From the IMG/VR virus record IMGVR_UViG_3300020442_002669, positions 1-33,565 of that record: a stretch of 33,565 bases of DNA; one strand, given 5' to 3'. Made by a program: the position numbers and the translations under genes. The notes beneath the pieces were generated by a model, which searched no databases, was not told where the DNA came from, and saw only the letters and a program-made list of their open reading frames with translations. Source of the DNA: a virus. This document shows positions 3,245 to 27,700 of this stretch, piece after piece; positions within the stretch are counted from its first letter, which is position 1; each line of letters opens with the position of its first letter.

Positions 3245-3256
3245 GGTAATCACCCA

Positions 3257-4285: not shown

Positions 4286-5680
4286 TTATGGATTTCCAAA
4301 AGGATTTTTTTCGCTAAAATCTAATAACTGATCTGCTTCAAATTCGATATCATCATTTTGAGCGAATGCATCTTTAGTATTATATGTATTTATTGGTTTA
4401 AGTTTATACTCTGCTCCAGAAGTACTTCCAACAATAGTTTCAAATGTTACAAACTCTCCATCAATTTGATAAACATTCAATTCATTTTTAGAAGCATCCC
4501 AGGACTTAACTAGTGCAGTAGTTCCACTTGTTCCACCAGTAACAGTTTCATTCTTAATAAATGTTCCACCAAGACCAACTATTGTAGGAGCAGCAATTGT
4601 AATAGTAGGTGCAACTGTATATCCAACTCCAGCATCAACTACTAAAATATCTGTAATAGTTCCTGCAGCACTAACTAATGCCTTAGCAGTAGCAGTTGCT
4701 AGTCCTGAAGCAGGAGAAGATACTGTTACTACTGGTGTAGTATAGTAATTACTTCCTCCATTTTGAACACTAATTATTTGTACACCACCATCAGAGATAA
4801 CTGTAGTTGCTGCAGCTCCAGAACCTCCTCCGCCGATAAATGAAACACTAGGGGCTGTAGTATATCCATATCCAGCATTAATTAAATCTACACCTTGAAC
4901 TCTAAATTTAGTTGGATCTGGACTGCAAAGATCAACAATATTGCCAATCATAGTTGCTATTCCAACTGCAGTAAGTCCTGTGCCATCTGTAGGAGCAGCA
5001 GAGAATTTTACTTCTGGTCTAGAGTCATAATTTGTTCCTCTATTCGTAATAAAGACCTGCCTTACTACTCCATTAGCTATGGTAGCACTTGCTGTAGCAG
5101 TTACACCTACTCCAAGAACGCTAAGTGTTTGAATATAACCCTCAGACTCTACAGTTGCATCTATAGAACCAACTCCAGTATCTACAACTTCATCACCATA
5201 ACGGAATAGTTCACATCTTAATTCATAAACATAATTTTTTTGTAGTTGATAGAAAGGTTTTTCATGTTCAACGTACTTTATCTCAAATAGTCTTTCACCT
5301 AAAGGAAAAAATATTAAATCACCTTCTTTAGGTCTAGTTAAGTAATTAATGCCCTCAAAATTTTGAGTTAGAGGTGCAATTTCCATCTCAAAACGTTCTT
5401 TAGATATTGTTACAACTAATTCATCAATATCTTGAACTCCAAATTTTGATAGGATAGTTCCTTGTCCTCCATATCCATCGTAAGTATTAACATATGCTTC
5501 TATTGGAGACGCATTGTTAAATTCGGACTGAATAACTTCAGAAATAACCGTATTTGTAGTTAAATATTGTCTTGGAATATAATAAATCTCTACTCCATAT
5601 ATCTGTAATTGTTCATTAATTAGATCTTGAACAAGACCCTGTTCTGATTTGGATCCTTGAAGAAAAAATGGATTTAACAT
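4286..5680 (-). CDS. 14: Neck protein gp14 with inserted beta repeats
   Basis: Head completion (neck) protein that, with gp13, seals the packaged head and forms the tail attachment site. The first ~165 residues carry the family signature: LNPFFLQGSKSEQ, then VEIYYIPRQY near 30-39, DGYGGQGTILSKFG near 68-81, and FFPLGERLFEIKYVEHEKPFYQL near 124-146, ending in an ELRCELFRYG strand. T4 gp14 is 256 aa; this one is 464. The extra length is an insert at about residues 200-370 of four tandem beta repeats, each with a GxxYxxxP core, followed by two SGxxA-type motifs (GGTSGTTA, GSTSGAEY). The C-terminal ~30 residues (FEADQLLDFSEKNPFG) resume a gp14-like end. It starts one base after the gp13 stop, so coupling is likely. 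Identification firm; the insert is probably surface decoration. Confidence 0.92.
   Translation of the reverse strand: MLNPFFLQGSKSEQGLVQDLINEQLQIYGVEIYYIPRQYLTTNTVISEVIQSEFNNASPIEAYVNTYDGYGGQGTILSKFGVQDIDELVVTISKERFEMEIAPLTQNFEGINYLTRPKEGDLIFFPLGERLFEIKYVEHEKPFYQLQKNYVYELRCELFRYGDEVVDTGVGSIDATVESEGYIQTLSVLGVGVTATASATIANGVVRQVFITNRGTNYDSRPEVKFSAAPTDGTGLTAVGIATMIGNIVDLCSPDPTKFRVQGVDLINAGYGYTTAPSVSFIGGGGSGAAATTVISDGGVQIISVQNGGSNYYTTPVVTVSSPASGLATATAKALVSAAGTITDILVVDAGVGYTVAPTITIAAPTIVGLGGTFIKNETVTGGTSGTTALVKSWDASKNELNVYQIDGEFVTFETIVGSTSGAEYKLKPINTYNTKDAFAQNDDIEFEADQLLDFSEKNPFGNP
4575..5075 (-). repeat. 14: Four tandem GxxYxxxP beta repeats inside gp14
   Basis: The encoded units share the pattern of a hydrophobic strand, then xxxGxxYxxxP, then a second strand, often followed by a Gly/Ala-rich turn. 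The cores are NRGTNYDSRPEV, NAGYGYTTAPSV, QNGGSNYYTTPVV and DAGVGYTVAPTI, spaced about 35-60 residues apart. Related units occur in gp8, the DUF4815 protein and the gp7-position giant. Confidence 0.75.
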
Positions 5681-5681
5681 A

Positions 5682-6500: not shown

Positions 6501-6523
6501 TTCTTTTTAAATTACCCCGTATA

Positions 6524-6757
6524 CTATGTATTGTCGTTAATTAATGATTTTAATAAAGACTTCAGTTCAGACAAATCATTTTTTATACTATTGACATCAT
6601 CTTTTAGTTCATCAATTTCATTATGTTTCTTGAGGTTTGCATTTCTCCTTTTTAAGTAATTTTCATATTCACAAGAATCTGTATTGATAACTGAGTTGGT
6701 ATTCATATCTCTATACAGATTCTTATGATCTTTTACCTTTATATATTTTTTATTCAT
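6524..6757 (-). CDS. Small charged coiled-coil protein between the DUF4815 gene and gp13
   Basis: A 77-residue protein whose start overlaps the end of the DUF4815 gene by four bases (ATGA). Its first half is basic with a YENYLKRR segment near 33-40. The second half (about 48-75: IDELKDDVNSIKNDLSELKSLLKSL) has leucine, isoleucine and valine at heptad-like spacing and should form a coiled coil, so oligomerisation is likely. Small proteins of this kind occupy the same place in other cyanomyoviruses, but I know no assigned function. It could be a chaperone-like or minor structural partner of the giant protein translated just before it; that is inference from coupling only. Confidence 0.75.
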   Translation of the reverse strand: MNKKYIKVKDHKNLYRDMNTNSVINTDSCEYENYLKRRNANLKKHNEIDELKDDVNSIKNDLSELKSLLKSLINDNT

Positions 6758-9700
6758 AATGCACCAAGAGCAATTGCTCTTAGATTTCTAACTTGAGGGA
6801 CATAGGAACTATTATCGGTAGATCCAACGATTTTAATTCTAAATTCAGTGAAAGATGAAATATCATCAATTGTATATTCATGTTCAATAAATTCAGAAGG
6901 TCCAGGTTCAAATGAATATGCATCAGATTTTTTAATATTTAAATCAGATGTACCATCACTAATAGAAGGATCAATTCCTGTAGAAGAATTGTAATTCCTA
7001 TATCCTGGGAATGGTACAAACCGATTACTTCCCCCAGTACTATAGAATACTCTAAGATCAGAATCTTCATTTAAGTATGCATCAAGAATTACTTTAATTC
7101 CTGATGCAGGATTTTGTAAAATAATTGGTTTTGTTACATATGTAAATAGGTGTGGATCTTCAGTTATAGATGCAACAGAAGCATCTTCTGCATAATTAAC
7201 ATTAGGGTTATTCACAATATTAGAGATCAAAACAATATCAGTTCTAGCCAAGTCAATAATAGGAGTTAATTTTGAATTCAAAGTTGAGAATGTCGCATTG
7301 AATACAATTGATTTATTATATGCAAAATCTCCTAAGAACTGAGTTTCATTATTTGCTGATCCAAGTACTCTAGTAGATTCTAGATAATTTATTTTGTTAT
7401 TCTGAACAAATGTTAATGGAGCCGCTTGCCAAGAAGACTTATTAGATCCTATTGATGTTCCTGTCACACTACTCATAGTATAAGATATATTTGTTTTAGC
7501 AGGAATCATTTCATTAATACTAGGTGTAATAGCATCATACAATTTATTATATGAAATTTTAACTTCTTGTCCACCTATAGAAGATAAAGTTTTATTCAAT
7601 TTAAGATCAGATCTAGTTCCCATATCAATTTTAATGTAATAAGAATCCTTCGTAATTGGATCCGATAATGTAACATCTCTTAAATCATGTGTTTTGTTAA
7701 TTCTTCTCAAAGAGATACTACCAAGTTCATACTTTGATACAAAAGATCCAGAGTAATGTGATTGTGCCTTAGTAGAATCTTGTGCTCTTTGAACTCCAGT
7801 TAACTCAGTATTTGTATATCCAGTGTAAGAAAGAAGTTCTCCATCAATTTTTACATATCCTGGATTTAGGGGACTGATAGGCAGATTTTCAAACGTTCTA
7901 AAATTAACTGTATTACTAACAGGAATATTTCCTACTGCATCAACTAGATAGTCAGAACTCAATGTAACGGGTTGAATATCACTCTGAACATCCTTAAGAG
8001 AAACTATATTCACATTTGAATACATTCCATGATTTTTATGATGAATTTTTATATGAGTTCCATCAGTTACTGTTACTGGAGCATCACTAATATATACTGC
8101 ACCACCATTTAAAGGAGTTTTAGTAAGTCCACTATTTAAATACTCAAGTTGATAAGTACCACTTTGTACAAATTCACCTTGAATTTCATCAATTTCAATT
8201 TCCTTTCTTGATAAAACATCACTAACAGTAAGAACTCCATTTACTCCAACAGGATTATTTCCTAGAGATGGTACTGATAATACATCTCCAACATTAAATC
8301 CACTACCTCCATTGCCACCTGAAATTACAGCATTGGCAATTACTCCACCAGTAACAGTTATGTCTGCGGTAGCATTGACACCCTTTCCACTCTTAGTGGT
8401 TAGTGATATATTTGAATAAGTAAATGATCCAGCTCCAGGGGTATATCCAACTCCAACTCCAGTAACTACAAACTGAGTTATACTTCCACCGTAACCAACA
8501 ACAGTTCCAGTTGCTGTTCCAACTCCTGTTCTTGTTTGATAAATGGTAGAACCATAGTCAAAATCTGTACTGGTTATTGTAGATGAAGTAGAAACTCTAA
8601 CTCTACTAGACTCAATTCTTAATGGATCATTTTTAGTAGATTCTGCTAGTTTAGTTGGTTTAGAATTAAGTAATTGAACTGATCCAGGATTTGTACTAAA
8701 TTCTGCTCTATATATTTCAAATTTCAAATCTTCATATTGACTTGGAGTCCAAGTTGAAGCATTCTGGGATTTAAATAAGGATCCCAAAATTGGTTGTGAA
8801 CTGACAAGAATCTGGTTTTGATTATTGGATAAAGTAGATACATCGATCTCTCCCATTTGAGATATCCAAACTTCATAATCTGTAGAATCTGAAAGTAATA
8901 TTAAAGCATATTCTCTCTTAGACTCTAAGTAAACTGGTGCTTTAAATGCAACAGTTGTTGATACACTAGAATCATCTGAAATATTAATTTGCTCAGGTAA
9001 TAAATCAACTTTTGAGAATGGGAGAATTTTCTTAGAAGGTAATCCAAGTTCAACTTCTCTAATTTCAACCATAACTGGAAGTTTTTCCGCTTTACTCTTA
9101 AAGAAGAGATCAACTTTAGTTACAAATATTCCACTATCGTCCCAAACAGTAAATGTTTGCGCCAGAGGATCTCTTCCTGGTGGTTGTGGTGGTAGCGGTG
9201 GTCTTGGTGGGGGTGGTGGGGGTGGTGGAGGTGGAACCGCTTGTTGATCAAGAATAATTGGGAAGTTAATGTTCTGTGATTCTGTAAAGTCTGTATTTAC
9301 CTCAACTTCAGCATTTCTAATAGATAATGTAGTATTCTGAGATACATCTGTAGAACCTTGACTATAGAATATAGCCTCAGCAAATGATTGTATAGATCCA
9401 GGAATTTCTGAATTTGTGTTACTATTGGTTAATCTTAAAGTAGATCTTCCGGTTTCAAATATAGGATAACCACTTACTGTTGGATCAGGAACTCTAAATG
9501 AACCAGTTAAAGATCCAACTTCATCAGAAATTAAATCAGTGCTAACAATTCTTGCCTCTGCCCCACTAGTTAGACCTCTAATAATCGCTCCTACTACTAG
9601 GTTGCCATTAAAATCAACTTCAGTCTCTTCACTTAAAGAGAAAGTGTCTATGTTTAATGTTGTACTATTAGTGCTGTATTCGGAAGAAACATTTGAATCT

Positions 9701-12700
9701 CTTTCATAAATGTTAGTTCCATAGAATCTTGTAGGTGACAGATATGATCCTTCTTTATGATTGGAAGAAGCAATTCTAAAAGTGCCTGTATTATCAAATG
9801 TGCGAACCTGATCTCCTGTTATATCTGTTTGTGCAGTTTCGCCTACCTGGAAAGTTCCAGATATCATCTGTATTTTGATTAGTTTATTAAAACAAAAATC
9901 AGATACATCAATTCCATCAAAGTATGGATACATCTTTGTAAATGGTTTTAGTCCACTACAAACAAATTCAATATTAATGGACCTCATTACAGTATCAAGT
10001 TCACGACTAACAATTCGTTCACCTAATGATTCAGTTTGAATACTTTCAGAAACTGAATATTGCAATCCATCTCTAGTTTGATTAAGTTCTATATTATTTG
10101 TTGTAGTAATGGTTCCCCATGCACCTGCAGTAGTATCATTTCTATCAGTTGTTGTGGTTATCTCTTGAGAATTAATACCTGTCGTTTCCCAAGAATTCCA
10201 AAGAACAGGACTTACTCCAGATCTTAAACCATCACCTGAATCTACAATATCAACCTGTAAAGCACTTGCAATGGCTTCAAATGATCCATCAAGAGTTACG
10301 TTATTTGGTTGAATAACTCTAGTATCAATCCAAACATCTGTGTCTGGATTTAATTGAATAGATCCAGTGTAATCTCTCACAAGATATGGAGTAACACTTA
10401 TTATTCTGGTTGCGAAAGGTTGCTTTAACCAACTTACATCACTATAGTTTAGTGTTAGTAAATCACCAGTCCTCCTCATATTATTAGCAAGTAATCCAGT
10501 ATATCTGTAATCTTGCTTTTGATTTACAGTTACTTGAGCAGAATTATTCAAACTATCATTTGAAACTTCAAGTTTCATATGAGTAGTGTTATGAGAGGGT
10601 CTAAGAATACCTTTTTTAGTATCAATACTATTTCTTACACCTCCAGAAACATCTTGTGCTTTTAGTGTAGTGAAGTTGTCTACAAAAAATCCAGATTTAA
10701 ATCTATTAAGTCCAGTTCCATCATCTACAAATAAGTTTTCTGTATTTGCTTCAAGTAATGATAAACTAGTTATTTTTTCAACCGTTTGTAAACGCTTATC
10801 TATTTTTGAAATATCTTTCATTTGATATCTCTTATGCTCGGTTAATCTTATTTGAGCATCTTTTACTGAATAGAGGTATGGTGGAAGGAATACATCAGCA
10901 ACTCTCATAGAACCAGGAACGGGTTCTATTATTTTTGGATCATCTTTTGAAGTTCCAGAAACGACCGAGAATACTCCATTTTTATCTACAAAAATACTAT
11001 CATATCTTGGTAGATAATAGGAGAAGTTTAAAGTTAAGGAGTCTGATTTAGAAATTACATGAGGTGTGCTATGAAGTCCAGAAGAAAAATCTCTTCCAAA
11101 AAACTCAAATGGTGATCTTATTCCTCCTGCTAAAGTATAAGTATTAACTCTAGGTCTAAGATCAACTAAATCTGTTACTCTAAGTCCATTAATTTTTGGA
11201 ATTTCCTTACCATAATCAAATGCAGAATAAGATTCTACTGTTGTAATATCTCCAGAATCTGAAGGATCATAATATCCTCTAGAGAAGAATACTTTTAGTT
11301 TTCTAGAAGGTGCTTCAACTCCAGGGTTTCTTACTAACTTTGAATATCCATAATATCCTAATTGTTGTCCTCCTTCCAATGTATAAGATGATGTAATATC
11401 TTTACTATTGAATACTATTGAACTAATTTTTGCAGAAACAGAAGATGATTTAAAATCTATAATCTCTTCTAGTAAAAAGACTTTACTGTTTTGATAGACG
11501 AATTTAGATTGAGTATCGTTTATACTTCCTAGATATTTCGCAATTGCCCCAGAAGTTCTTCCAACAATTTGCTCACCTACGAGGAAATCTGTAGTAGTTC
11601 CAGTAGATCCAGATATATCTGTTAATGTCATTAACGGAGCTTCTGGATCGGCAGTATTAATAGACTCATAAATTGCATGTATTTCTACAACATCTGGGTG
11701 AACTAATCCAATTTCTTCATCTTGTACTCTAGTTCCATATGGATAATTGTCATAAATTAATCCATCATTTAAACTATTTTGAGTGCTTCCAGATGCTTTA
11801 TTTGAAGACGCTGATATAATAGTAGATCCAACAATTTCTTTAAGTTTCTTTTTAGAGGAAACATTAGTCTTCCTCATAGTCGCTATGAGTCTACAAGTAC
11901 TATTAGATCCTAAGTTATTAATCTTTAGTTCTGTTGATCCCTGTGTAAATTGGAATTTATCTGCGGTTAAAACTTCATAAGTATTGTCACTTCTAATTAA
12001 AGTATATCTATCTTCATCAAAAGGTAAAAAAGTTTCATTTGCGTTTGCAGAAATAATACCAGTAGAATTTGATGTAATTGTTACACTAAATTCTCTTCTT
12101 ATTACTATACTGCTATTATTAAATTCTACAGAGGCAACATTCGGTTTAGGAAATGCACTAAACAAAGAATTATTATCTGCTGGATTTCCTGTATATTCGG
12201 TCTTAGAAAGTTTTGACTCTAAGACTTTAAAGTCACTTACAACCAGTTGACTAGATGGTAGAGTACCATAATTTACCCCAGTTACAGTAGTAACTTCATC
12301 GACAAATATTGTTATTAGAGTCTTGGATGAAACTACTGCATATGTTGGATCAGATTGTCCAGGAGTACTAAAACTTACAATGTCTCCAGTTTTAATTTTT
12401 TGAATTTTTTCTGGACTAATAGTTACTTCTGAAGTACTACCAACTTTAGCTGCAATAGTAGCGGAACCAACATTTAGTTTAAGACTCTGAATTACATCTG
12501 CATTAAAATTTGCTCCAGATGTATTTGAGAAAATTGACTTTACATCAGAATATCCATATCTGGTAATACCAGTAATATATCTTCTATCAAAGTTTTCATT
12601 TTCATCTGCTTCATCAGTAAGAATTCTAATTGGTTCATTTGCAACAAATTCTCCTTCAATGCTATAAAGAGTTAATGATGTAGAATTAGTGACTGAACTT

Positions 12701-14196
12701 CTTAGGTATGCTGTTGCTCCAGAATTCTCACCAATAATTTTAGATGGTACATCTAATGAAATACTTGTATTAATAGTTACAACTGTGTATAGTTGAACAT
12801 CAAATAATGAGATATTCCATCTATTAGAATCAGGTGTGGAAGAGTCGTAACTTCCACTATCTAGATAAAAATCATATGCTCTAGCAACACCTATCTCAGT
12901 TCCAGATCGTGCGCTGTCACTAGATCCAATTCTAGTGTTCTGTAAATAAAGAACCTCTGTAGTATTAAATCCTAATTGAGGAGCACCGTATGCTCTATTG
13001 ACCATTAGTGATGGTCCAAAATCGAAATTAACTGCTTGACCAGTTACAGTTTTGGCTACTCTAGGTTTGTTTATATCTACAAAAGAGTGTGATATTGTCT
13101 CCACCTCATATCCTTTCACATAAGCTTTTCCTGGACTTATCTTATAAGTAGCAAGAGATTCATCAGGAGAATTTCCAGATCTAGTTGTTTCTCCAAGTTT
13201 ATAAATTCCATCAGAATTTAAACCATCATTTAAAGTATTTTTTAGAGAAAGATTAAAAGATTTTACATAATAATCTCCAGATTCATCATATGTTCTTCTA
13301 GCGAGTTCTTCACCAATAATATTATAATCTGTTTTAGTTTCTACTTTTAATAATTCACCATCTCTAACTTCCGCTAGTTGAATAAAATTCTTATCATCAA
13401 AATCATCTAAAGTTTTCTTATCAAGTGTTGCAGTAATTTTAAGTCTATCAGCACCTGGAGCAGAGAAATTACTAAACCCTTTGGCATTATCTGTTAAACT
13501 AGAATCGTCATAATAATTTACAAGACTCTCTTCGATACTGAGTCCTAATCTATAACTTGCAAATCCATCGTACTGATTGAGAATTAAAATATCATTGTGT
13601 ACCTTTACAAAATGACCTCTAATAAAATAAATTCCTTCTTCAATAGTAAATGCTGATGATGGAGAAACTGCATTTACTATTTTTGTAGAAGCAAATCCTT
13701 CACCAACAGAAATAAAGACATTAGAAGTTACTTCTATAGCAGTGGTTGCTTCAAGAACTTCATTATCAAAGAAGTTTATTTGAGTTCCGTCAGTAGAAGT
13801 ATCAATGTATGAAACATATAACGTTAAAGAGTTTCTTTCTGATTGCTGCTCTTCAATAATATCTAAGATTTTAGCAGTAACTCCAGAACTTCTTCCTTTA
13901 ATAGTTAAACCAACTAGTTGATCTGTATATGAGATTACTGGAATTCCTGCAAATAATGAATTAATCTCTACAGCAACAACATCAATATAGTTTGTTTGAC
14001 CTGGAATTACAACAGATCCTTCTTTGAAGAAATGACTTCCAAAGCGTTCAACTTGATTCTGAAGTATCGTTTGTAGAGTAGTTAATTCTCTAGCCTGAAT
14101 AGGGTATGATGGTTTGAATAAAACCTTATGAAAATTTTTGTCCTCATCAAAATCATCAAAATAAGGACTTACATTAAGATTAGTTTCTTGAGGCAT
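6754..14196 (-). CDS. Giant DUF4815 tail/baseplate structural protein (2,480 aa)
   Basis: Very large virion protein in the slot of gp9-gp12 between gp8 and gp13. The N-terminus (SPYFDDFDEDKNFHKVLF, PIQARELTTLQTILQNQVERFG, GSVVIPG) matches the DUF4815 domain, which I associate with baseplate-attached phage proteins. The middle is beta-rich, with repeated G-S/T-SGA motifs (GRSSGVTA, GENSGATA, GRTSGAIA, GLTSGAEA). At 1655-1674 lies a proline tract (ten P, R, then PPLPPQPPG), immediately followed by DPLAQTF. Around 1900-1990 are GxxYxxxP-type units and at about 2094-2165 an IDGE...R...H module, both shared with neighbouring genes. The C-terminal part ends in a discoidin-like TEFRIKIVGS strand. 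The start is five bases after gp8, and its stop overlaps the next gene. Inferred: wedge-to-fibre connector or side fibre. Domain call good; T4 equivalence (gp9/gp10) uncertain. Confidence 0.85.
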   Translation of the reverse strand: MPQETNLNVSPYFDDFDEDKNFHKVLFKPSYPIQARELTTLQTILQNQVERFGSHFFKEGSVVIPGQTNYIDVVAVEINSLFAGIPVISYTDQLVGLTIKGRSSGVTAKILDIIEEQQSERNSLTLYVSYIDTSTDGTQINFFDNEVLEATTAIEVTSNVFISVGEGFASTKIVNAVSPSSAFTIEEGIYFIRGHFVKVHNDILILNQYDGFASYRLGLSIEESLVNYYDDSSLTDNAKGFSNFSAPGADRLKITATLDKKTLDDFDDKNFIQLAEVRDGELLKVETKTDYNIIGEELARRTYDESGDYYVKSFNLSLKNTLNDGLNSDGIYKLGETTRSGNSPDESLATYKISPGKAYVKGYEVETISHSFVDINKPRVAKTVTGQAVNFDFGPSLMVNRAYGAPQLGFNTTEVLYLQNTRIGSSDSARSGTEIGVARAYDFYLDSGSYDSSTPDSNRWNISLFDVQLYTVVTINTSISLDVPSKIIGENSGATAYLRSSVTNSTSLTLYSIEGEFVANEPIRILTDEADENENFDRRYITGITRYGYSDVKSIFSNTSGANFNADVIQSLKLNVGSATIAAKVGSTSEVTISPEKIQKIKTGDIVSFSTPGQSDPTYAVVSSKTLITIFVDEVTTVTGVNYGTLPSSQLVVSDFKVLESKLSKTEYTGNPADNNSLFSAFPKPNVASVEFNNSSIVIRREFSVTITSNSTGIISANANETFLPFDEDRYTLIRSDNTYEVLTADKFQFTQGSTELKINNLGSNSTCRLIATMRKTNVSSKKKLKEIVGSTIISASSNKASGSTQNSLNDGLIYDNYPYGTRVQDEEIGLVHPDVVEIHAIYESINTADPEAPLMTLTDISGSTGTTTDFLVGEQIVGRTSGAIAKYLGSINDTQSKFVYQNSKVFLLEEIIDFKSSSVSAKISSIVFNSKDITSSYTLEGGQQLGYYGYSKLVRNPGVEAPSRKLKVFFSRGYYDPSDSGDITTVESYSAFDYGKEIPKINGLRVTDLVDLRPRVNTYTLAGGIRSPFEFFGRDFSSGLHSTPHVISKSDSLTLNFSYYLPRYDSIFVDKNGVFSVVSGTSKDDPKIIEPVPGSMRVADVFLPPYLYSVKDAQIRLTEHKRYQMKDISKIDKRLQTVEKITSLSLLEANTENLFVDDGTGLNRFKSGFFVDNFTTLKAQDVSGGVRNSIDTKKGILRPSHNTTHMKLEVSNDSLNNSAQVTVNQKQDYRYTGLLANNMRRTGDLLTLNYSDVSWLKQPFATRIISVTPYLVRDYTGSIQLNPDTDVWIDTRVIQPNNVTLDGSFEAIASALQVDIVDSGDGLRSGVSPVLWNSWETTGINSQEITTTTDRNDTTAGAWGTITTTNNIELNQTRDGLQYSVSESIQTESLGERIVSRELDTVMRSINIEFVCSGLKPFTKMYPYFDGIDVSDFCFNKLIKIQMISGTFQVGETAQTDITGDQVRTFDNTGTFRIASSNHKEGSYLSPTRFYGTNIYERDSNVSSEYSTNSTTLNIDTFSLSEETEVDFNGNLVVGAIIRGLTSGAEARIVSTDLISDEVGSLTGSFRVPDPTVSGYPIFETGRSTLRLTNSNTNSEIPGSIQSFAEAIFYSQGSTDVSQNTTLSIRNAEVEVNTDFTESQNINFPIILDQQAVPPPPPPPPPPRPPLPPQPPGRDPLAQTFTVWDDSGIFVTKVDLFFKSKAEKLPVMVEIREVELGLPSKKILPFSKVDLLPEQINISDDSSVSTTVAFKAPVYLESKREYALILLSDSTDYEVWISQMGEIDVSTLSNNQNQILVSSQPILGSLFKSQNASTWTPSQYEDLKFEIYRAEFSTNPGSVQLLNSKPTKLAESTKNDPLRIESSRVRVSTSSTITSTDFDYGSTIYQTRTGVGTATGTVVGYGGSITQFVVTGVGVGYTPGAGSFTYSNISLTTKSGKGVNATADITVTGGVIANAVISGGNGGSGFNVGDVLSVPSLGNNPVGVNGVLTVSDVLSRKEIEIDEIQGEFVQSGTYQLEYLNSGLTKTPLNGGAVYISDAPVTVTDGTHIKIHHKNHGMYSNVNIVSLKDVQSDIQPVTLSSDYLVDAVGNIPVSNTVNFRTFENLPISPLNPGYVKIDGELLSYTGYTNTELTGVQRAQDSTKAQSHYSGSFVSKYELGSISLRRINKTHDLRDVTLSDPITKDSYYIKIDMGTRSDLKLNKTLSSIGGQEVKISYNKLYDAITPSINEMIPAKTNISYTMSSVTGTSIGSNKSSWQAAPLTFVQNNKINYLESTRVLGSANNETQFLGDFAYNKSIVFNATFSTLNSKLTPIIDLARTDIVLISNIVNNPNVNYAEDASVASITEDPHLFTYVTKPIILQNPASGIKVILDAYLNEDSDLRVFYSTGGSNRFVPFPGYRNYNSSTGIDPSISDGTSDLNIKKSDAYSFEPGPSEFIEHEYTIDDISSFTEFRIKIVGSTDNSSYVPQVRNLRAIALGAL
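9175..9234 (-). repeat. Polyproline hinge coding tract (ten consecutive prolines)
   Basis: Codes for ten consecutive prolines, one arginine, then PPLPPQPPG within the DUF4815 protein. The plus (template) strand is correspondingly G-rich, with several runs of three to five G separated by single T or A. The tract divides a beta-repeat N-terminal two thirds from a C-terminal third that begins DPLAQTF, as expected of a stiff linker. Confidence 0.85.
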
Positions 14197-14201
14197 GATA
14201 C

Positions 14202-15761
14202 TTAGAACTGTAGTATAACTTTAATTAATTCTTTTTGGTTCTGTGACCTTGTAATCGGAGGTCTGTTGTCAACGTAAATTATATTGCCCGAATATTTTTC
14301 AACTTCCGGATTTGCAAGACCATTTACAAAACTTTGCCCGAGATTATATGTCCTATTATTTATCTGCATCGTTGAACCAGTAAACGCAGTGTCAATTTGA
14401 AGAATGATATCTCCACCGTTACCACGAACATTTATTGATCCACCTGTAGCGGGAGTGTTAGTAAAAGAATATCGATCTAAACCATAAGTTGGTTCATATG
14501 TGATTGTCCCTCCATATCCAACTCCGTGAGTATATCTATCATTCCAATATTTTAATATTCCAGTAGCTTTATTATATGAAACTACTCTTCCCATAGCAGT
14601 TTGGCCAGCACCAACAGTTTGTTCAACTACACTATCCTCATCAAAAGATACATTATTAAATCCATCTCCAACTAACTTAATTGCTGCTATAGAACTAGCT
14701 TTATCCAAAGTCAAAATATCGGTCGAATTATACACCGTTGGATTTTGAATAAGACCAACTCTTGAAATTTGATTTTCTAAGATAAAATCTGGATTTTCTA
14801 AATCATTTTCTATAGATGAGAAGACCATTACATTGAAGGCACCAAGTTCATTGTAAATATCAGCACCATGTCCCCCTTTGGGAGGAATCATAACTTCAAA
14901 TGAAGGTTCTAAAACATTCACAGGTAATCCACCACTAACATAGTCCACAATCCCATAAGTATATCCAGATCCCCCACTAGTAATTACAATTCTATCAACT
15001 TTAGAATCATTTCCAATTACGATTGATGCCTCTCCACCAGTTCCATCACCCTTAATAGGAATATTAGTGTAAATTACATTTGCAGTTCCTAATCCAACTC
15101 CACGATTTTTAATTAAAATATTTTTTAGTTGACCACTAGATTCTGCATGATTTCTTACATCAGCAGTATTTGAATTAGTTTCCCAATTATTTGGGACTGG
15201 GATATAATTTGTAGAGTCAAATTTTATAATTTCACTTGGTTTTATTGTGTAGAGATATTTCCAAATATATCCATCTCCACTTAAACCAGCTGCTTTTGGT
15301 TCTAGATCAGTAAATGTTGGTTGATCTAGTGAAGGTCTACCATCTGGATGTTCTGGATCCGTTCCATTACTTAGACAAATATAAACCCTATAATCTTCAT
15401 TAACAACATAATAATTTGAAGCATACAAACTTGAAGAATTTGAAGAGTTTGATAAATTAGTTCTACTAATATCATTTCTATACATGTCATAGACATTTTC
15501 TCTTGTCCAGACATTTTTTTGAACTACATGCCGTACATCATCACTATTAATTTTCTTTACTGCAATAATAGTATCCCAATAATCATTCTCTTCATTACCA
15601 TTATCTTTTGGTGCTGGAGGAGTTACATTCCAATTTGAATCATAATCATATGGATTTGGCAATCCAATAAAAGAATAAAATGAATTATTAGAATCCCTCA
15701 CAGAATTTACAAAATTCTTCGCATTTAATATTCTTAATTGATCCGTAATTATTGCAGCCAT
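14202..15761 (-). CDS. 8: Baseplate wedge protein gp8
   Basis: Baseplate wedge subunit that in T4 joins gp7, gp6, gp10 and gp25 in each of the six wedges. The N-terminal ~190 residues are typical of cyanophage gp8: ITDQLRILNAKNFVNSV, SFIGLPNPY, then KNVWTRENVYDMYRND, NYYVVNEDYRVYICLSNG and GYIWKYLYTIKPSEIIKFDS. At about 207-280 are units with NRGVGLG and TSGGSGYTYG cores, resembling the gp14 repeats. The length is 519 aa against 334 in T4, so the growth is in these inserts. A late-promoter-like octamer lies 16 bases upstream, overlapping the stop of the preceding giant gene. That could restart transcription after 12 kb. It is followed after five bases by the DUF4815 gene. Identification firm. 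Confidence 0.9.
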   Translation of the reverse strand: MAAIITDQLRILNAKNFVNSVRDSNNSFYSFIGLPNPYDYDSNWNVTPPAPKDNGNEENDYWDTIIAVKKINSDDVRHVVQKNVWTRENVYDMYRNDISRTNLSNSSNSSSLYASNYYVVNEDYRVYICLSNGTDPEHPDGRPSLDQPTFTDLEPKAAGLSGDGYIWKYLYTIKPSEIIKFDSTNYIPVPNNWETNSNTADVRNHAESSGQLKNILIKNRGVGLGTANVIYTNIPIKGDGTGGEASIVIGNDSKVDRIVITSGGSGYTYGIVDYVSGGLPVNVLEPSFEVMIPPKGGHGADIYNELGAFNVMVFSSIENDLENPDFILENQISRVGLIQNPTVYNSTDILTLDKASSIAAIKLVGDGFNNVSFDEDSVVEQTVGAGQTAMGRVVSYNKATGILKYWNDRYTHGVGYGGTITYEPTYGLDRYSFTNTPATGGSINVRGNGGDIILQIDTAFTGSTMQINNRTYNLGQSFVNGLANPEVEKYSGNIIYVDNRPPITRSQNQKELIKVILQF

Positions 15762-15776
15762 TTGTGAGTTTTTAGT

Positions 15777-15784
15777 TATTTATT
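15777..15784 (-). promoter_or_regulatory. Candidate T4-like late promoter before gp8 (AATAAATA)
   Basis: Minus-strand AATAAATA within TAATAAATAA, 16 bases before the gp8 ATG and overlapping the stop codon of the giant upstream gene. It matches T4 late consensus TATAAATA at seven of eight positions. Its place after a 12-kb gene makes a fresh initiation point plausible. Confidence 0.5.
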
Positions 15785-18700
15785 AGGGATTGTAGTTTTT
15801 AAAGTTTAAGAATGCTTTTCTTCTAACAACAGGTAAATCATCAACATTAGTCATATTATTTGGGAATCCAAATGAATAGTTTCTAAGTTTTCTATCAGTT
15901 CCAATTATTCTACCCCAACTATAAGAACCAAAGTAATATGGATCGGGAGCAGAATCTAAATCGGTCAATACACTACCATAACCATTAACACTAACGGTTA
16001 CACTTAAATTGCTATAATCACCAATAGTAAATTCAATACCATCATTAACTGTAATATCTCCAGTTGTATCAATCATAGTTGCAGAAGCAACTTCAGTATT
16101 TACACTGATTACTTGAGTAGTTGATACGATATTATCACCAACTTCAGCATCAATTACCTTGTATATATTATCAATAAAAGAACTGGATTGGAATAATAAA
16201 TTACTGTCATCATCTAAACTATTTAACCCACTTCCAACATTAGAATTACTGACTCTAAAATAATAACCTTTTTCTAATCTTGAAGTAGTAGCAGCAAATC
16301 CAGAGATAGACTTATCTCTTAAGATAGAATCTCCTGGAATTTCTAATTGAAATTTTAGTCCAGTTGTTGCACCAGTGACTGATGTTGCTGCAACCCCAAC
16401 AATATTCCCATAATCACCAAAGTATTCCACATCTGTTAGAGTTTCTGCTTTTAAATCGGGTTGATTTACAGTTATTGTTGGTGGAGTTATGAAACTAGTT
16501 CCTGTCTGTGCAATACTTACACCTACAATAGATCCATCTGTATCATTGACAGTTGCAACTAATAAAGGAACTTGACTAGAAGCAGTACCAACATTAGTTT
16601 CTACACTAATTATAGGCGGATAAGAATATCCAGTTCCACCATTAACAATAGTAATTTGATTAATAAATCCATTAGAATCTAATCCTGCAATTAGTTGTGC
16701 TCTTGTACCTTCAAATTTTGAAACAACTTCAACAGTTTTACGCTTTTCATCAACTGCATTCTCTTTTTCACTACTAAAAAATGGAAGTAAAGTATCTACA
16801 AATATATGAGTAGAACCAATACCAACACTATTAATAACATTACATGTAGGATAAATCTGAGGTTCAAGACCAACTCTATCCTTTGTATATACGGTATTAC
16901 CGGCCACAATGTCATTTCTTTGCTTACACCACATCAGTGGGCGCTCTAAATCAAAGTCAGTGCTAATTCCTGCTCCAGAATATGGATTGGTAATAACACT
17001 ATCAATAGATTGTATTACTTGTACTCTTCTTTCATTCTCTTGATAATAGAAGTCATCACTATTAATAGTTACATGATCTCCAGGTTCTATAGTTTCAATA
17101 ATATCATTGAATACAACATCAATATCAGGAGTTCCTTTATAGAATAGAATTTCACATCTATCTCCTTTTTTAGGTGCTTCTGCAAATGTTATGTAACTTC
17201 CACCCTCAAATTTATATCCAACATCTGGTCTCTGTAAAATATTATTGACAAAAACTAATAAGGTCATCTTTAGATCAATATTAGATCCTTTTCTTGTAAC
17301 TATTGGATATACTTCACCATTAAATGCTAATGGGAATGTAAATCTTTGACCATTAAACATATTATCAATATAATCTAATGGAGTAAATTCTCCCATAGAC
17401 CATCCAGAGAACTTATCAATATAAACTCTATCTAAAGTGATTTGTAGTTCGTTGAAAGTCTTACTGGTGTCTACAGGAATTCCATAATCACCATCAGTTG
17501 GTATTGTTAGAACCTCTAGATTATCATAAGAATAACCATAATTTTTAATTTCAAAACTTTCTATAGTTCCATCTTGACTTACTATAATGTCTGCAGTTGC
17601 TTGTGTACCAATACCATTTACTGGAGAAGATGAACTATAAATTAAAGGAATATTATCATAAGTTTTTGGTTCATCAATAACAACAACTGGTGGATATACT
17701 TCACTTGATACATTTATTGGATTTGTAATAGTAACACTATAAACACGTCCATCAGCTACGTTAGCATAACCAACAACTACATCTAATGTTGATTCATAAT
17801 CATCGGAAGATATACCAACTAATTTGACTGCAATTGATTGATCTTGTTGTGAAGGTCTGTATCCAGATCCAGAAGACTCAATACTAATAGACACAAGGTC
17901 ATTAGATAGGTTATAAACTGCAGTTCCTCCAGCACCAGATAGTGGTTGATATCCAGTAGCATCATTACTAGAAATTTGTTGAATAACACCACCAACAGGA
18001 ATATTGAAGGTGTTTATATCATAATCTTGATTATTATCATCTGTAACGAAGAAAATAGTACTAATTCCAGTTCCTCCAATATAGTAAGATCCTTCAATCG
18101 CAGGATTTCCATCTCTCTTTGGAATTTGGAATACATCCTTAATAAGGACAACTGCATTCATATCTTGTACATCATGTACATTATACTCATTAGATTTTAT
18201 GAGTAGATTATCACTACGTAGTTTAAATTGAGAAGAAATATCATCAAAAATATAGTTTTCTCTATAAGTAGTATTTGCAGTTCCAACTTCACCAGATCTA
18301 AAGAATACTCTTCCGTAGAAACTAGAACTAGTTTGTATTCCAGTGAAGTCTATTTCATCAGGATCAGTTGTTTCTTGAGGTGTTAGACTTATTGGATCTC
18401 CAACAAAAGTCATAAAGTTTTCATGAACATTGTAATTTCCACTATACTTTCTAACTTCGGATCCTGATAAGTGAGATGCAATTCCAATATTCATCCAATC
18501 TCTTCTTACTCTACAGAGATTAGTAATATTACCAACACCAACATCATCAATTAGCATGTACTCATTATCAATCTTAACCAAATCACCAGTATAAATTGAT
18601 CCAATACCACTTAAACTAATGAATGAAGTTGTATCATTAATATTTGAAGAAAGTGTAGTTTTAATTGGTGTAATAGATATTGGAGATTGAATTATATTAT

Positions 18701-21700
18701 CGATAGTGACTAAGCATTTCTCAATTTGCTTATCTGATTGTAAGAAGTGACTATTACCAATACCAACTGAAGAGAATGATAATACTTGAGGTAATTTGTT
18801 TAAAGCGTCTTCAGCAGTTGCACATAAATGAACTTCTGCTTGATTAACTCTTACAGCATATACCTCAGAAGGTAGAATACTAGTCAATCCAATTCCAGGA
18901 ATATTTGTTGGTTGTATAGAAATAGGAACATTTCCATCTCCATAAGAATAATGAAGTTTTTCTCCAGTCACAAAGTTATTTCCAAAAATTTTAATAGTAC
19001 TACTTCCAATACTTACAACATTATTATCGGATCCATCAAATGAACGTTTGAATATAGGATAACCATTATTAAACATCTCAAAAGATCGGTTCAATGTAAT
19101 TGAATATCCTCCAAAGAAGGAGTTGGAACCACTTAGAGCAGCATTTCCAAGATTAACTGTCACCAGATCAGCATTATCTGGATTAGAAGTTCCAACACTC
19201 TTTATAAATCCACGAACTTCAATGTTTGCAGTTCCATAAAGTGGAACAAAGTTTATGAATGTTTCCTCTCCTGATAATGTTGCAGTAAAATACCCATGCC
19301 TGTAATCATTTACACCAATAGTTCCATATTCACTTATCAATGCCTCGGAATTATCTGGATCTGATAAAACTAGAACCTCAGTACACTGGTGTTCACCGCT
19401 ACTCTTATTTTCGATGGTAACATATAGATAGGCTCCATATTCATGCTTATTATTATAACTAGAAATCTGATTTTCATCCAAAGATCCTATTGGAATATCC
19501 ACATAAAAAGATTTAATAGTACCAGTGTTTAAATTAGTACTACCAGTCGATACATTACTATGGTCATTAACTCTAATAATTGAAGAGTTAAAATCACAAT
19601 CAAATGGAAGTGATGAATTTGAGATAAAATCAACTTTAATATCATCTCCATCTACATATGCAAAATAAGTTCCAAGACCAGACGTATCATCAGAAACTAG
19701 TTTTCCATAATCCAATATATTAACAGAAATTGAGTCTGTAGTACCAGATCCAATAAAAGTATCTGAAACAAAAGTCAGTTCATTTACCTGAATATAATTG
19801 TTTGTATCACTACTAATTGCTACAATTGCTTTAGCAGATCTAAATTCTGATTTTGCTATTGAAATTATAGTTTGACTTGTAGATCCACTTAATCCTAAAC
19901 TATATGCACCAAAGACCTCTGAAACATCACCTAAGTAGAATGTATTAATACCAACATCATTGTTGATGTCAAGAGATATAACAGTATTAGAAAAATCATT
20001 AGGTCCAAATTCAGTATCTTGAGTAGGAGTAAATTGCAGTGTCATTACTCCATTATCAACATTAAAATCATAACTTCCAGTGTATTCTTCATCTGTTGTT
20101 AAAATTCCATATTCATCAAGATATGATGCTTCTCCAGAGAATGCGGCGGAAAGTAGAGAAATTTGCTTTTTACCGTCTTCTTCTGAGAATTCTGAATAAG
20201 TGAGATATTTTTTATATCTCTTTGTATTCACATTAAATTGATCAAGTAAAACTGTTCTTACAATTCCTCCAACAACCTGTGATCTATCATCAGGAACTTC
20301 AATTTGAACTACACGATTTCCAATAGATTCAAAATAATCACTTAGTATTCTAGAGTTAAATACTATTTTATTAGAAACTGATCGATTAGATATATTCTCA
20401 GTTACTTCTCTAACAATATCAAAATCATTATAGCAATCTAAATCCATTTCACTAACTAATTCAGATATACCAATAAAATCTCCATTATCTTGACTTGTAC
20501 ATATACCTGATACTAACTCACAATTTCCATTAATTTCAGTAGGGGTTGACTGAACAGTTAATTCTGAAAATTCTTTGAATCCTGCGGGGTGAGCTAGAGA
20601 TCCTACAGATTCTCCCCAAGTATCATATGAAATTTCACTATTTAAAGCATATGAGAACCTTTGATAATAATCATTATCATGAACTCTTTGTGTAGGTTCA
20701 TTTAAAAATCCTTTTTGATCAACCCAGTTATTTGTAACAACATTATAAGGCCCCAAATTAAATTTAGATTTTGTAAATGTATTAGAGATAATTGATGATA
20801 TATTTCCAGAAGATTTTCCAATAAGAGTTCCTTCTTGGGGGAAGATTTTATTGGAAGCAAGTTTTAATGATCTATTCTCATAATTCCAACCTAATACAGT
20901 ACCTGTATATTCTTCTCCAACTACAACATTTTCTCCAATATTAAAGTTAATATAATCTAAAGAAACATCAAATTGTGGTAAATCATCTTCTTTTATAACT
21001 CTACCAAAAGATAACTGTTTAACAAAATCACCTGCTGTAGAGAAAATATCAAGATAAGATGCTAAACTGTAACTAATAGTCGGTAAAAATCCACCAATAT
21101 TAGGATCTGTATCTGTAATTTCAAAGAAATTGTAATCGTAATCAGATGAATTATAACCAGAACCATTATCATGAACAATATTTTCAACTAAAATACTATC
21201 TCCAACAGAAAATGGGAAATCTTCAGGTTCACTATATGCGGTATCTAATTGTAAAGTTACTTTTTGTGTTACTAAACTATAAGTTGCAGAACTAATTCCA
21301 ATTCCATTATCATTATTAATTGGGAAAATTTTAGGAGAGTTACCAATTAAAGATTGTTCATTACTCAAGAATTCTATATTTTCATTCACTGGATCATATA
21401 CCATAGAAATTTTATCTGTTGGCATATTGTTGTAAGAATCGACAACAATTAAATCCTGCTTAGAAGAGTATCCAACACCATTATCAGCAATTTCAATAGA
21501 ACCAATTTTATATCTTGGTTGAACTTTTAATAATTGTGGGAATATGCAAGTAGGTCTTAATGTAATATCAGATGGATATTCAAAAGAAGTATCACTTATA
21601 ATAATGTCTCCAGGTTTTCCAATGTCTTTTGTTACTGGATTTAAGAAAGCACCATATCCATGATCAGTTTTTATAGAATTAATTATAGGTTCTTTCTTGT

Positions 21701-24700
21701 AAAGTTTATTATATGAATTGAGTAAAATACCTTGTATTGGACCATAAGCACTAGTTGAATTTGTGATATAACTAATGTCATTCTCCACTCCATTATAATA
21801 AGGTTCCTCTAGAGTATTATCACTAAAGATAGTAAATGAATACGTAGAGATTCCTGTTACACTATAAGTTCCATTATAATTACTTGGTTGTATATTTAAT
21901 AAATTGTTATTAATTATTGAATCCGAATCATTAATATATTCTTTCTTCTCAAGCGGAATTAAATTTTCATCAACTGTAATTAGTGAATAATATAGTTCTC
22001 TTGGAACATCATTTGTTAGAGTTAACGTTAATTTAGCCTCGGAACTTATTCCAGGTCTACCTTCATAAACTACATTAAATTTATTGGTTTTTTCGGAAGA
22101 GAAAAATTCTCTATGATAATTAGGATCCTCATATAATCTAAAATTAAATGCTGAAATATCTTGACCAAAATAATTAGTTGCTAATGATGGATCTGAAAGA
22201 TCAAAGATTATTTTTGAGTTTGCATATACTAATATTTCTGGATTTACTTTACCAATATATCCATCAAACTGAGTGACAATCCCTACTACTTCTGGATTTT
22301 CTTGTATAGATTTATAATAGTTTTCCGCAAACTTTATATTATTACCATCTATAGAAATAATATATACAATTCGGTCATCTCCAAGATCTGTTATAGATCC
22401 AGAAGCTTTATAGATTACTTTGTCACCAGTGTTAAACCTGTGATTGGGAATTGTAAGAGTATTATTAGTGACACTTAAATCTGTGTCAGAAAAATTAACT
22501 GGATCAATAAGCATTCTCCTATGAGTATCATTATATACAACCTTATAACTGGTTGTAATTCCAGAACTTAAGCTCAGTTCAACACGATCATTTATAGATA
22601 GTCCATGGGTTTGTGCTGTAGCAACAGTTATTAAACTTCTCTCTGCATCAATTTTTACAACATCAGTTAAGTCGGTAGTAAACTTGTGATTATTTAAAGT
22701 TCCAGGATCAGAAAAATATACTAATGCATCATGGAAAGATACAGTAGATCCATAACTAACTGATTTATATTCAGATCCATTATTCAATAGTCTTTGAGTT
22801 GAGAGTCCAATAATATCTTTGGATAACCAAACAGTGTAAAGTTCTTCCCCTTCGGATAATTCAGAAGAGGTTGATCCATCTAGAGAGATCAATATTGGAT
22901 CTCCTCCATTTGAAGAGTAAGATAATTTATCTCCAGTTCTTAAAGAGTGATCCCTGTAGTAAATTGATCTAGTATTAACAAAGATTTCAGTACTTCCAGA
23001 AGACACATTTGGTATAGGTAAAATATTTCCAATACCAGGACCATAAGTCAATCCAATTGAAACTGTGCTCTGAGGATCAATATAAAGAGTTTTGTTTATT
23101 CTTGATTTAAAATTAATCTGATCCGATTCAAGATTAAATCTAACTTTTTTAGTATCTTGGGTTATTACTGATGATGCAGAATGTGCAAGACCAACTGTTC
23201 CATCTATCCCTCTCTCAACTCGTATAAACTTATTAACTCTATCAACTTCTAATACTTTTAGTTTTTCATTATTAATGAATAAAATATCGTCGGGCATTAA
23301 AATTGGAAAACTGAGATCTCCATACACTCCTATACTAGTAATATCTCCAGTTGTAATAGAATTGGGTAAATCGGTTTTTAGTGCGTATGATGGAGTATCA
23401 ACATTTAATAGGAATCGATCCGACTTAAGTTTAGATGTGATATCAGTAGAGAATCCACTAATAATTACTGGATCCAAATTTTTAAATTCATGAATAGATG
23501 TACATACACCAACATACTGAGAACTATTAATTTGAACAACTTCAATACCTCTTACAGTATAATTTGAGTACGATACACTATTAACTTTTTTACCTTGAAG
23601 GTAATTAATTTTTACAGTTTCTGTAATCTCACTATCAGTATCTAAAGATAACGCAACTCTATCACCAACTTGATAATTATCACCAGGATCAACAATTTCA
23701 AAGGAATCTATTTTACCTGTAGATGTATAATCAATAATTGCATTTTGATTAGCAACTTTTAATGGGTCATCAATATATGAATATGCACTATTTTCATCAG
23801 TGAAGTTATAATCTGTAGTATTTCTTTGAAGACCAGTTTTAATTGGATCATAAGTTCCTTGATCATTATTTGAAGTAAAGTTAAATTCTATTGGTATTGA
23901 TTTGAAATTTTCACCAATGATATAAGGATATACTGGTCTTCTAAATCTTCTAAATGGAGACCCAGGAGTAGCATCTACACCACTTGGATCTATAGTAGCA
24001 AAATATGCATAAACTCCATTTGGATACTCTGGAGTCACACAGTATCTTCCATTATTTTCATCAAGATCACCAGAATTTGAAAAATAGTAATCACGCACAA
24101 AGAATCCGCCAGGATATACTGGTGGTCTATTGGTATCATATGTTTGTACAAGTTCATAACCACTTTCTAAACATTTAACACCACCTGTACCATCTATATT
24201 TGCAAAACCATATGGTCCATATATTGGATGTCCATCATAAGACCATCCAATAATTGGAGAGTGTCTATCAGATTCCTTTTCATTATTAGATTCATCAAAA
24301 GTTAAATCTTTTTCAAAAGTTAGTTTACCTGATACATATTTCTTTCCAAAAACAGTTTTTCTAAACTCTCTCGGTGCATATAAATGCGTATATTGTATTC
24401 CATACTTACCATCTCTGATAAAACCATCATCACTGGTAACTTGTTTATAATAAAGTAGTTTTTCAACCTCATTAATTTTCCATTCATCAATTTTAGCTTC
24501 TAATGTTGCCCCAGAACCTGCAGGCTCTATTGTAATATAAGTAGAATTAACATCATAACCAGTTCCTTTCGCAAAAACTACAACTTTATCAATATATCCG
24601 TCAATAATAACTGGAACTAATTTTGCTCCTCTTCCAACTCCATTTACAACAATATTTGGGATAGAAAAATAATTTCTACCTTTATTTTTTATCAGTACTG

Positions 24701-27700
24701 CTTCAATTTTCCCATCAACAACAAGTGGTTCAAGGTCTCCCTTACTTCCAGTGTCAATCTCAAAAGTTGGTTGTCTATCGTAATTGGGTATATTTTCGGA
24801 ACCATATCTAGTTCCTTCAGAATTAACAAATGCTCTAACTACACTACCTTTAAATATTGGTTGTAAAACTGGTCTCCTTGTAGTGGAACTAATTCCAGTT
24901 ACTTCAACAGTGATAGGTGGATAGTTAAATTCATGACTAGATCCACTTTGTACATATGTAAATTCAACATATTGATTTGTTCTTAAATTAAAATCATCTC
25001 CATTAATAGTAGAAATTCCACATAATCTAAAACTGTCTTCATCAATTACATTTACAAGATATTTTGTTTGATCTTCTAATCCTTGGATAGCATCAAAAAC
25101 TCCAACTCTTCTATAGATTATAGTATCCCCATTATTATATCCATGGTTTTTTATGTAAATACTGTTATCATGAATATTTACATTTTGAGATTGGACATAT
25201 ATTTTTTTAGATCCGTATTCGTATCCAGGATTAGTGACAACTACTGATTCAATTTTATTTTTATTTCTTAATGATTTAAAATTATGAATTCCTTTACCAT
25301 ATCCATCAAGACTTACAGTGTTTAATCCAGCAGAAATATCTTTGAAAGTATCAAATAGTCTAATAGAATATTCATCAACAACTTCAACAAAATATTGTGC
25401 TCCAGTTTCTAATCCGACGATTCTTGTTTGATTATATTCAGGATTGTATATTACTTCTTCATAATCTCTAAATCTGTGGAATGTACCAAATCCAATAATA
25501 TTATTAGTTAAATCAACTCTATTAGGATCTGCAGAGTTAAATGATAATACATTTTCTACTACTGATAATTTTACTTCAGCACTAGCTTCTTTTCCGTTAC
25601 CACCACTTATAATTACTTTGGGTTCTAACGAATAGAAATCAAATCCTGGATCAATTATATCAATTCTTTGTAAAGATCCCTGTATTTCAATATCAATAGT
25701 TGCTCCAATTCCAACAGAATCAGTTATAACCACTTTTGGCGGATTAATAACATCATACCCAGATCCACCACCAGAAACTACTACTTCTTTAATTCCACCA
25801 TAAAAAATAGAATCTTTTGAGATATTATTTGATATTTCAACGCCATTATTTAAAATGCCGACTGTATCATAATTTTTAACCGGGTAATTTTTATCAGAAT
25901 ATGCTGGATGAGAAATTTTCTTTATAATTTTTGCGGATTGTAAACTATCATTTGAATATTTCTCAAGAACAAAAGTATTTTCAAATACGCTTCCTACTGT
26001 GTCACCATAAGATGCCTCAGTTGAATCTACAGTAATAAAGTTTGCAGCAAATAAATTTGCTCTACTACTAGCTATTTGAATTATTTTATCACTAACTCTA
26101 CTAACATAATAAAATCCTTCTGGAATGTTAAGTTTATTATTACCTTCACCAGCGATGTATCTAATAAAATCTCCAGTAATAAAATTATGATCTGGTATGT
26201 CTAAAAATTCACTTGAAAAACTTCCAGAAAATTTTCTTACCGGATTTTGAGTGTTTACTTTATAATTTGGTAATGATGATGAAACAATGTATAAATTATC
26301 ATCGTCATCATAGTAAGTATTTTGAATATTTGTTAAATTCTCGGTTGATTCTGGAAAATTAACAGATTTTAACTTTTGTAGTTTTCTCTTTACATACAAA
26401 AGAGATTCTTCTATGAAAGATGAAACTTCTAGATCTAATGTTACGAAGAATGTATTTTTGTCTTGAATATCGACAACATCATACTCTTTTTCCAATAAAT
26501 TTTTAAATCTAAAAATAAGTTTTTCTCCTAGTTTAAACTTATTTTCAGTTATAGTTTTTACTTTAAATAATCCCCTCTCAACAACAATGGATTCGATATC
26601 ATATTGTATTGGTAAATTATAAAATAACTCACTATTTCTAATATCAAGAGGATTTGTTTTTCCTAAATTTTCAATTTCAATTAAATCTCCGACTTGATAA
26701 AAATAATCACTATCTACAGGATCAACTCCACTAGCAATTGAAGATACTCTAAACCTTACTTGATTTTCGGAATTTCCAACGTATGCATATGCATAGGAAT
26801 TCATTCTTACTGAATTATTTTCTGGTAAATCAATAGTTATTCCAGAGCATCCTAAAAATTGATTATAATTTTTAGAGGAATATGTGATAGTATAATCTGC
26901 TCGACTTCCTGGAACTCTATAAACAATACTTCCAGACTCTGGGAAACCTAAAGTTGATTCTACATTGATAACTGTTGAATTTTTAACAGCAGTCTCAGTT
27001 ATTTGAGTCTTAGGATGAATTGAAAAGTTTCCAACTACAGTTCCTCCAGATACTGTAATATCTTTATCATAGTCATAATCTAATTTAAGACTATAATAAG
27101 TGTCATTACCCAATGATAGTATTTGAACATCACTTACAGAACCTTGAGCAAACTCAATTCCATTTAAACTATCTTCATCCTGGAATACTGTTCTATTTTT
27201 AATATCCTCAAAATTACCTGATAAGATTTCTACTGTTAAATTTTGAGAAATTCTATACTTTGATCCTGAAGGTTCAATTGTATTTTCATAAGGCCTTGTT
27301 ACACTTACTTCCGTTCCATATAATGCACGGAATAAGATTTTAAATGCCTCATCAGAACCCTTTGCAGAATAAAAATCTATAGAGTTAGATAAGAATGTAT
27401 TCTTGTTTAAACCCTCTGCTAAATTTCTATTTTCAAACCCAGGAGAAATTTGTGATTTTAACTTTTCTAAGAACAGTCTTAAAGATAAACCACTAATATT
27501 TTCAACTGTAGACCCACTAGTATGAGAATCAGTTTCTGATGAACTAAAAACTAATTCTTCACTTAAATTGGATTTACTAATTCCACTAAATCCACGAGTA
27601 CAAGTCTTAAAAGAATTAGTTCCTCTTTCTTGATATAAAATAATTTCATCATCAATTTTAATTAAACCATTTCTATCTGGAAAACCAATAGTATTATCTA

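Follow-up and report, generated by a model that had tools for sequence, protein, structure and literature searches.

A paired β-module recurs in the neck and baseplate proteins of a cyanomyovirus-like virus and is probably related to domain I of the T4 tail sheath

The closest described counterpart of the repeat analysed here is domain I of the T4 tail sheath protein gp18 (PF22639; solved in 3FO8, 3FOA and others), a six-stranded barrel with a helix that protrudes from the tail (PMC3004832), makes no inter-subunit contacts (PMC3004832) and, in T4, binds both the baseplate and the long tail fibres in their retracted state (PMC3004832). The gp18 mutations G106S, S175F and A178V block fibre retraction (PMC3004832); the published positions fit only if the first methionine is left uncounted, and correspond in full-length numbering to G107, S176 and A179. 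No Pfam model matched the repeat unit above cut-off, our literature searches (mostly outside subscription journals) found no description of it and no cyanophage experiment that bears on its role, and a term search of Sullivan 2010 (PMC3037559) turned up no repeat in these proteins.

The DNA under study is a virus contig of 33,565 bases (the whole of which we call the window) that encodes on its minus strand gp25, gp6, a giant gp7, gp8, a DUF4815 protein (named VrlC in some relatives), gp13, gp14 and gp15. The gene order is identical in S-SM2, Bellamy and SynMITS9220M01, and is found with additional genes in P-SSM2 and P-TIM68 (the DUF4815 protein of the latter is named “putative neck protein”); this conservation among cyanophages marks the window as a cyanomyovirus-like (Kyanoviridae-type) structural operon. 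The reading frames of gp14 (464 aa), gp8 (519 aa), the DUF4815 protein (2480 aa) and gp7 (4053 aa) are genuine. Pfam recognizes T4-like cores in gp14, gp8 and gp15: the N-terminal neck domain of gp14 is PF11649 (residues 2–180, E 8.8e-30), and the core of gp8 is PF09215 (E 1.4e-16), which also aligns with T4 gp8. Elsewhere in the window, positions 30508–31218 match phrog_3704, “ferredoxin” (E 6e-116), and no Pfam family; the name is doubtful because the relatives are labelled ferredoxin in some cases and purM in others.

The repeat is a unit of ~40 aa in three strands, running strand, GxGY, then xxxP or xVGD, strand, a Gly/Ala turn (G-S-G-A) and a last strand, with the consensus GxVxxITITNxGxGYTxAPxVTFSSPxGxGxTA and a variant form GYxVGDxLxV. 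In gp14 it occurs as four tandem copies (residues 204–240, 260–293, 298–332 and 340–373; window 4562–5071, minus strand, as are the other sites of the repeat and of the two further modules in the window), lodged after the T4-like neck domain and ahead of the conserved C-terminal tail, in agreement with the original prediction of four tandem units at 4575–5075. An AlphaFold2 model of gp14, computed with 44 relatives, gives about three strands per unit at a pLDDT of 77–96 across the block (mostly above 86), and no helix is predicted inside the units. Strand E1 precedes GY, E2 follows P and E3 is the Ala-rich stretch, which turns straight into E1 of the next unit. For gp8 the AlphaFold2 model has low confidence (mean pLDDT 48.8, with about 54–71 in the insertion), and no solved neck or baseplate from a member of the Kyanoviridae was found.

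Outside gp14, one pair is present in gp8 (residues 210–250 and 254–272; 14946–15134), located by a profile of gp14 units, by relatives and by alignment with T4 gp8, and one in the DUF4815 protein (residues 1904–1949 and 1952–1995; 8212–8487). The second unit of the DUF4815 pair is of the GYxVGD variant, and the pair is weak in the window genome and clear at the homologous place in relatives. Profile matches in gp7 define tandem pairs at residues 716–749 and 756–790 (25575–25799) and at 3759–3789 and 3804–3833 (16446–16670; present in 65/71 and 68/71 relatives), units at 1078–1107 and 1116–1154 (24483–24713), lone units at 1410–1438 (GYxVGD type, 23631–23717) and 2146–2171 (21432–21509), and a pair at about 3350–3430 (17655–17897) that is weak in the window genome and present in 40 and 43 of about 65 relatives. 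The coordinates first proposed in gp8, the DUF4815 protein and the giant protein were correct to a few tens of bases, and gp7 units at about 25256–25206, 24599–24483, 23717–23631, 21509–21432 and 17750–17655 had been overlooked. A YHYH domain (PF14240, E 1.3e-23) occupies gp7 residues 1189–1320 (23985–24380), immediately after a run of units.

The units are homologous across gp14, gp8, the DUF4815 protein and gp7, as profile comparisons of their sequences demonstrate. When a profile was built from the window's four gp14 units only, the best matches after gp14 itself were three giant-protein and two gp8 units. A second profile that included no gene other than gp14 (323 units from 81 phages) detected gp7 residues 3759–3789 at 12.9 bits, gp8 254–269 at 9.4, gp7 756–790 at 7.8 and gp7 716–749 at 6.5, against a top score of 5.3 bits over 50 shuffled copies of the window proteins. 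The scan with a gp14-built profile that had been set as a check of the family thus recovered the gp8 and giant-protein units above the shuffles but not the DUF4815 unit of the window genome (−5.9 bits, no match above the shuffled controls), which emerged instead in its relatives, with 16 matches of at least 6 bits in 15 ORFs. A wider profile found 33 matches of at least 8 bits in the DUF4815 relatives and zero in shuffled DUF4815 sequences. Alignment of pair profiles by hhalign joined all four genes (gp14/gp7 E 4e-16, gp14/gp8 6e-11, gp8/DUF4815 3e-10, DUF4815/gp14 4e-9, DUF4815/gp7 1e-8, gp8/gp7 1e-6), with negative controls at a probability of 1.5% or less and neck-domain and other sheath-domain profiles at 0.2% or less. 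One β-unit family running through four genes that are otherwise unrelated, as originally proposed, is therefore borne out. The composition of the units is biased, and a synthetic consensus gave no BLAST match with the filter on, both of which would suit convergence on low-complexity Gly/Ala/Thr-rich β-sequence; that reading is nevertheless exceedingly improbable, given profile–profile E-values that reach 4e-16 and given that the profile iterated to all genes made 469 matches of at least 8 bits against 0 in block-shuffled sequences of equal composition (one shuffled match at this level once the set was enlarged with gp8 relatives). Two candidate similarities were discarded along the way: the same consensus, which was written by hand and whose searches under the low-complexity filter had drawn a blank in phages and plasmids, touched the lectin OAA in the PDB (E 0.048), a match unrepeated by real profiles, and HPr matches of one profile (A3, E 0.027) were absent with a broader one (A4).

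Pairs predominate among the units. Beyond the four units of gp14, with one pair each in gp8 and DUF4815 and several in gp7, the runs counted comprise 77 pairs and 29 singles in gp8, 33 pairs and 27 singles in DUF4815, and 102 pairs, 72 singles and 14 triples in gp7, where 130 adjacent pairs were observed versus 27 expected under random placement. In some singles the partner has degenerated to below the cut-off, or a contig end clips the pair; the gp7 units at 900, 1420 and 2160 look truly single. Because the run counts favour pairs, and from the comparison with gp18 domain I, we infer that the pair is the folding unit.

That comparison indicates that the unit family is very probably a distant relative of gp18 domain I, as far as profiles can tell. 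The unit profile matches domain I in 13/13 Straboviridae gp18 sequences, at one place and at 5.6–14.5 bits, with 0–1 of 200 shuffles each reaching as far. In the reverse direction, a profile of domain I only (13 sequences), run against 1336 ORFs, put 18 of the best 20 matches and 89 of the best 100 on unit sites, which make up 4.2% of the residues searched; these fall in gp14, gp7 and DUF4815, and matches among relatives are not independent. As the best shuffled score was 10.4 and single scores are weak, the reverse case rests on where the matches lie. By hhalign, domain I and the units align at up to 84% probability (E 8e-6), versus at most 1.7% for 30 column-shuffled decoys. The best match of the unit profile in T4 was gp18 102–119 (7.4 bits) in a scan that covered about 133 of 169 kb, the 50–76 kb region and the last 10 kb lying outside it; a spurious frame scores 6.8 bits, so the T4 sequence by itself proves nothing about the link. 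Blind searches gave weaker results: the Pfam cut-off of PF22639 was not reached (2/42 pairs matched, best E 0.014, with no gp14, gp8 or gp7 match at E 0.1), gp18 ranked 13th in a PDB profile search (E 0.38), and T4 gp18 was absent from the best 50 of a PDB fold search with the gp14 model. The strand order of the gp14 model would fit a six-stranded barrel made as two three-stranded halves. G107 is the G of GSNY, and S176 and A179 lie in an SGLA loop, such that the retraction mutations fall in the module's two signature loops.

Comparison with T4 and the pelagiphage HTVC008M informs on how the units came to lie where they do. T4 gp14, gp8 and gp7 contain no unit; the first two are, as had been noted, much shorter (256 and 334 aa) and align without the insertions. 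Alignments of gp14 and gp8 with T4 and HTVC008M reveal insertions in the cyanophage proteins, and at the level of sequence establish that the units are inserted into T4-like cores. HTVC008M has two units in a gp7-like protein and one in gp8, while its gp14 (290 aa) retains the N-domain and the DFTEKNPFGDP tail and lacks the array; either gain of the array in the cyanophage line or loss in HTVC008M would fit. Among relatives selected for their resemblance to gp14 or gp8 of the window, a sampling that more distant arrangements may escape, exactly four units are found in 87/87 cyanophage-type gp14 proteins, and unit positions are constant in gp7 (3360, 3420, 3780, 3820), gp8 (220, 260) and DUF4815 (1920, 1960).

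The original prediction envisaged exchange or duplication of a single module among co-assembled proteins. The genes are adjacent and hold three kinds of module in common, which would suit ongoing exchange or gene conversion among the four neighbours; we regard this as very unlikely, however, since the nearest relative lies at the same position for 340/348 gp14 units and identity between gp14 positions is no higher within a genome than between genomes (0.36–0.43 in both). With positions fixed, the gp14 copy number constant and within-genome identity equal to that between genomes, any duplication or exchange behind the family is old, and the claim of exchange is unsupported. The family also extends beyond these four genes, so that exchange among them is indistinguishable from several insertions drawn from a wider pool.

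The proposal of a single module likewise needs amending, since two further modules are shared among gp14, gp15, DUF4815 and gp7. An SGA module (VxGxTSGxTAxV...GxFxxxExIxGxTSGA), found by iterated profile, follows the array in gp14 (residues 375–425; 4406–4558) and recurs in DUF4815 (11431–11583, 12625–12744) and in gp8 and gp7 of HTVC008M. Its motifs are in register with those of the unit, yet hhalign gives a probability of just 0.1–1.5%, for which reason homology of the two is not claimed. A third module (IDxExLxxT type), also from an iterated profile, forms a C-terminal extension of gp15 (residues 243–324; 3302–3547) and is found in DUF4815 (7708–7968) and gp7 (27480–27749, 23151–23378, 18429–18662).

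The unit pair itself matches 22 PHROG families (baseplate wedge, tail fibre, head closure, head decoration, hub and others), and other fibre-like proteins near gp14 in relatives carry it; in the window, an incomplete protein at 3–2102 has Mtd_N and PKD domains, and a fibre-like gene thereabouts bears a unit pair in several relatives. PHROG families are built on whole proteins, and the module is therefore unnamed and can transfer names across unrelated proteins. In HTVC008M, I899_gp055 (33435–36485, 1016 aa) has the RefSeq name “head closure Hc2”; it resembles gp14 in the repeat and SGA region only, and its N-terminal similarity is gp7-like (E 1e-5). The name probably came via the shared module, a warning that annotation can pass in this manner between unrelated proteins. 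The name “putative neck protein” on the P-TIM68 DUF4815 protein is a parallel case.

On balance we favour, as probable, an old paired β-module with a barrel of the gp18 domain I type, inserted in loops of neck and baseplate proteins and serving outwardly for docking or spacing. Each pair would most likely fold into one compact barrel of six strands that belongs with domain I in a single superfamily, a fold that we would expect in all copies; pairs would have been inserted anciently into loops of cyanomyovirus gp14, gp8, gp7 and DUF4815, leaving T4-like cores intact, and afterwards inherited in place. By analogy with T4, the pairs would be surface-exposed and offer an outward docking or spacer face for tail fibres or adjoining baseplate parts, with the conserved GxxY and GSGA loops as the candidate contact face. 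Docking is the leading idea for the cyanophage copies because the retraction mutations hit the signature loops of domain I; these mutations, being tight-turn changes, may simply destabilise or unfold that domain. The “decorative” role in the original prediction is likewise plausible, since domain I protrudes from the T4 tail.

A different role, unlikely in our estimate, is that the units are purely structural cement, interior or between subunits, which would make the neck ring and baseplate larger and stiffer without docking. The fixed gp14 copy number (four in 87/87) and gp8 and gp7 positions, unlike those of variable decorations, and the ordered, high-confidence gp14 strands would sit well with cement, but the repeat region is more variable than the neck domain (mean column identity 0.66–0.75 versus 0.84), HTVC008M manages without the gp14 array, and the related domain I protrudes without inter-subunit contacts (PMC3004832). 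Carbohydrate-binding sites usually present a set of aromatic and polar residues, whereas the signature residues of the unit are Gly, Ala, Tyr and Pro. A role as carbohydrate-binding modules that hold the virion on a host surface glycan appears distinctly improbable, even though the best solved match of the pair profile is a tailspike depolymerase (Dpo31/Dpo36, E 7.5e-7) and one report (PMC6669499) describes carbohydrate-binding modules in neck proteins of lactococcal phages; no Pfam carbohydrate-binding family matched at cut-off, with 1/42 pairs touching PF22579, “Cbm74” (E 0.13).

Returning to the outward docking or spacer pair, its recurrence in core structural proteins of abundant marine phages, with no Pfam match above cut-off, suggests that virion surface proteins have an old, uncatalogued building block in common. 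The link connects cyanophage neck and baseplate proteins to a T4 domain with a known structure and a partly known role, and makes the purpose of the extra parts in cyanophage necks and baseplates testable. A bolder and doubtful extension would make the pair an uncatalogued fibre-docking module, general among tailed phages, whose GxxY and GSGA loops hold folded fibres along the virion. If this were true, T4 would show the pair on the sheath as gp18 domain I, Stenotrophomonas phages would do so at another sheath site, and cyanophages, in which the sheaths examined (S-SM2, P-SSM2, S-SKS1) contain no unit, would carry it instead on neck (gp14) and baseplate (gp8, gp7, DUF4815).

Several known systems invite comparison. 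The unit is contained in PHROG 460, 438, 2885, 708, 701, 5342 and others. The tail sheath of Stenotrophomonas phage Moby (record 1964–3937) has a near-consensus tandem pair at residues 240–312 (26.3 and 36.8 bits), at a different sheath site from T4 domain I; related sheaths are encoded in 17 Stenotrophomonas records and by one Xanthomonas phage. Among solved structures, the sequence that best matches the pair profile is that of Dpo31/Dpo36 (28lx, 28mg, 8ck1; residues about 449–527), a tailspike depolymerase by name, likened here through sequence only; PDB 8fqc_A residues 45–84, of the baseplate central spike gp27, gives a weak match to the pair profile (E 0.028). Ig-like and other shuffled phage domains (e.g. 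PMC10684548) are likewise small β-domains spread across many unrelated virion proteins, but they form a separate sequence family (42 pairs, compared with Pfam up to E 10, matched no Ig-like family), and the unit shows no sign of recent shuffling here. T4 gp18 domain I differs from the cyanophage units in its location in the sheath and in having a helix, which is absent from the gp14 units; it resembles the unit pair in its size of about 90 residues, the six strands that a pair is expected to have, its insertion in another domain, and a reciprocal profile similarity that spans the first unit and extends into the second.
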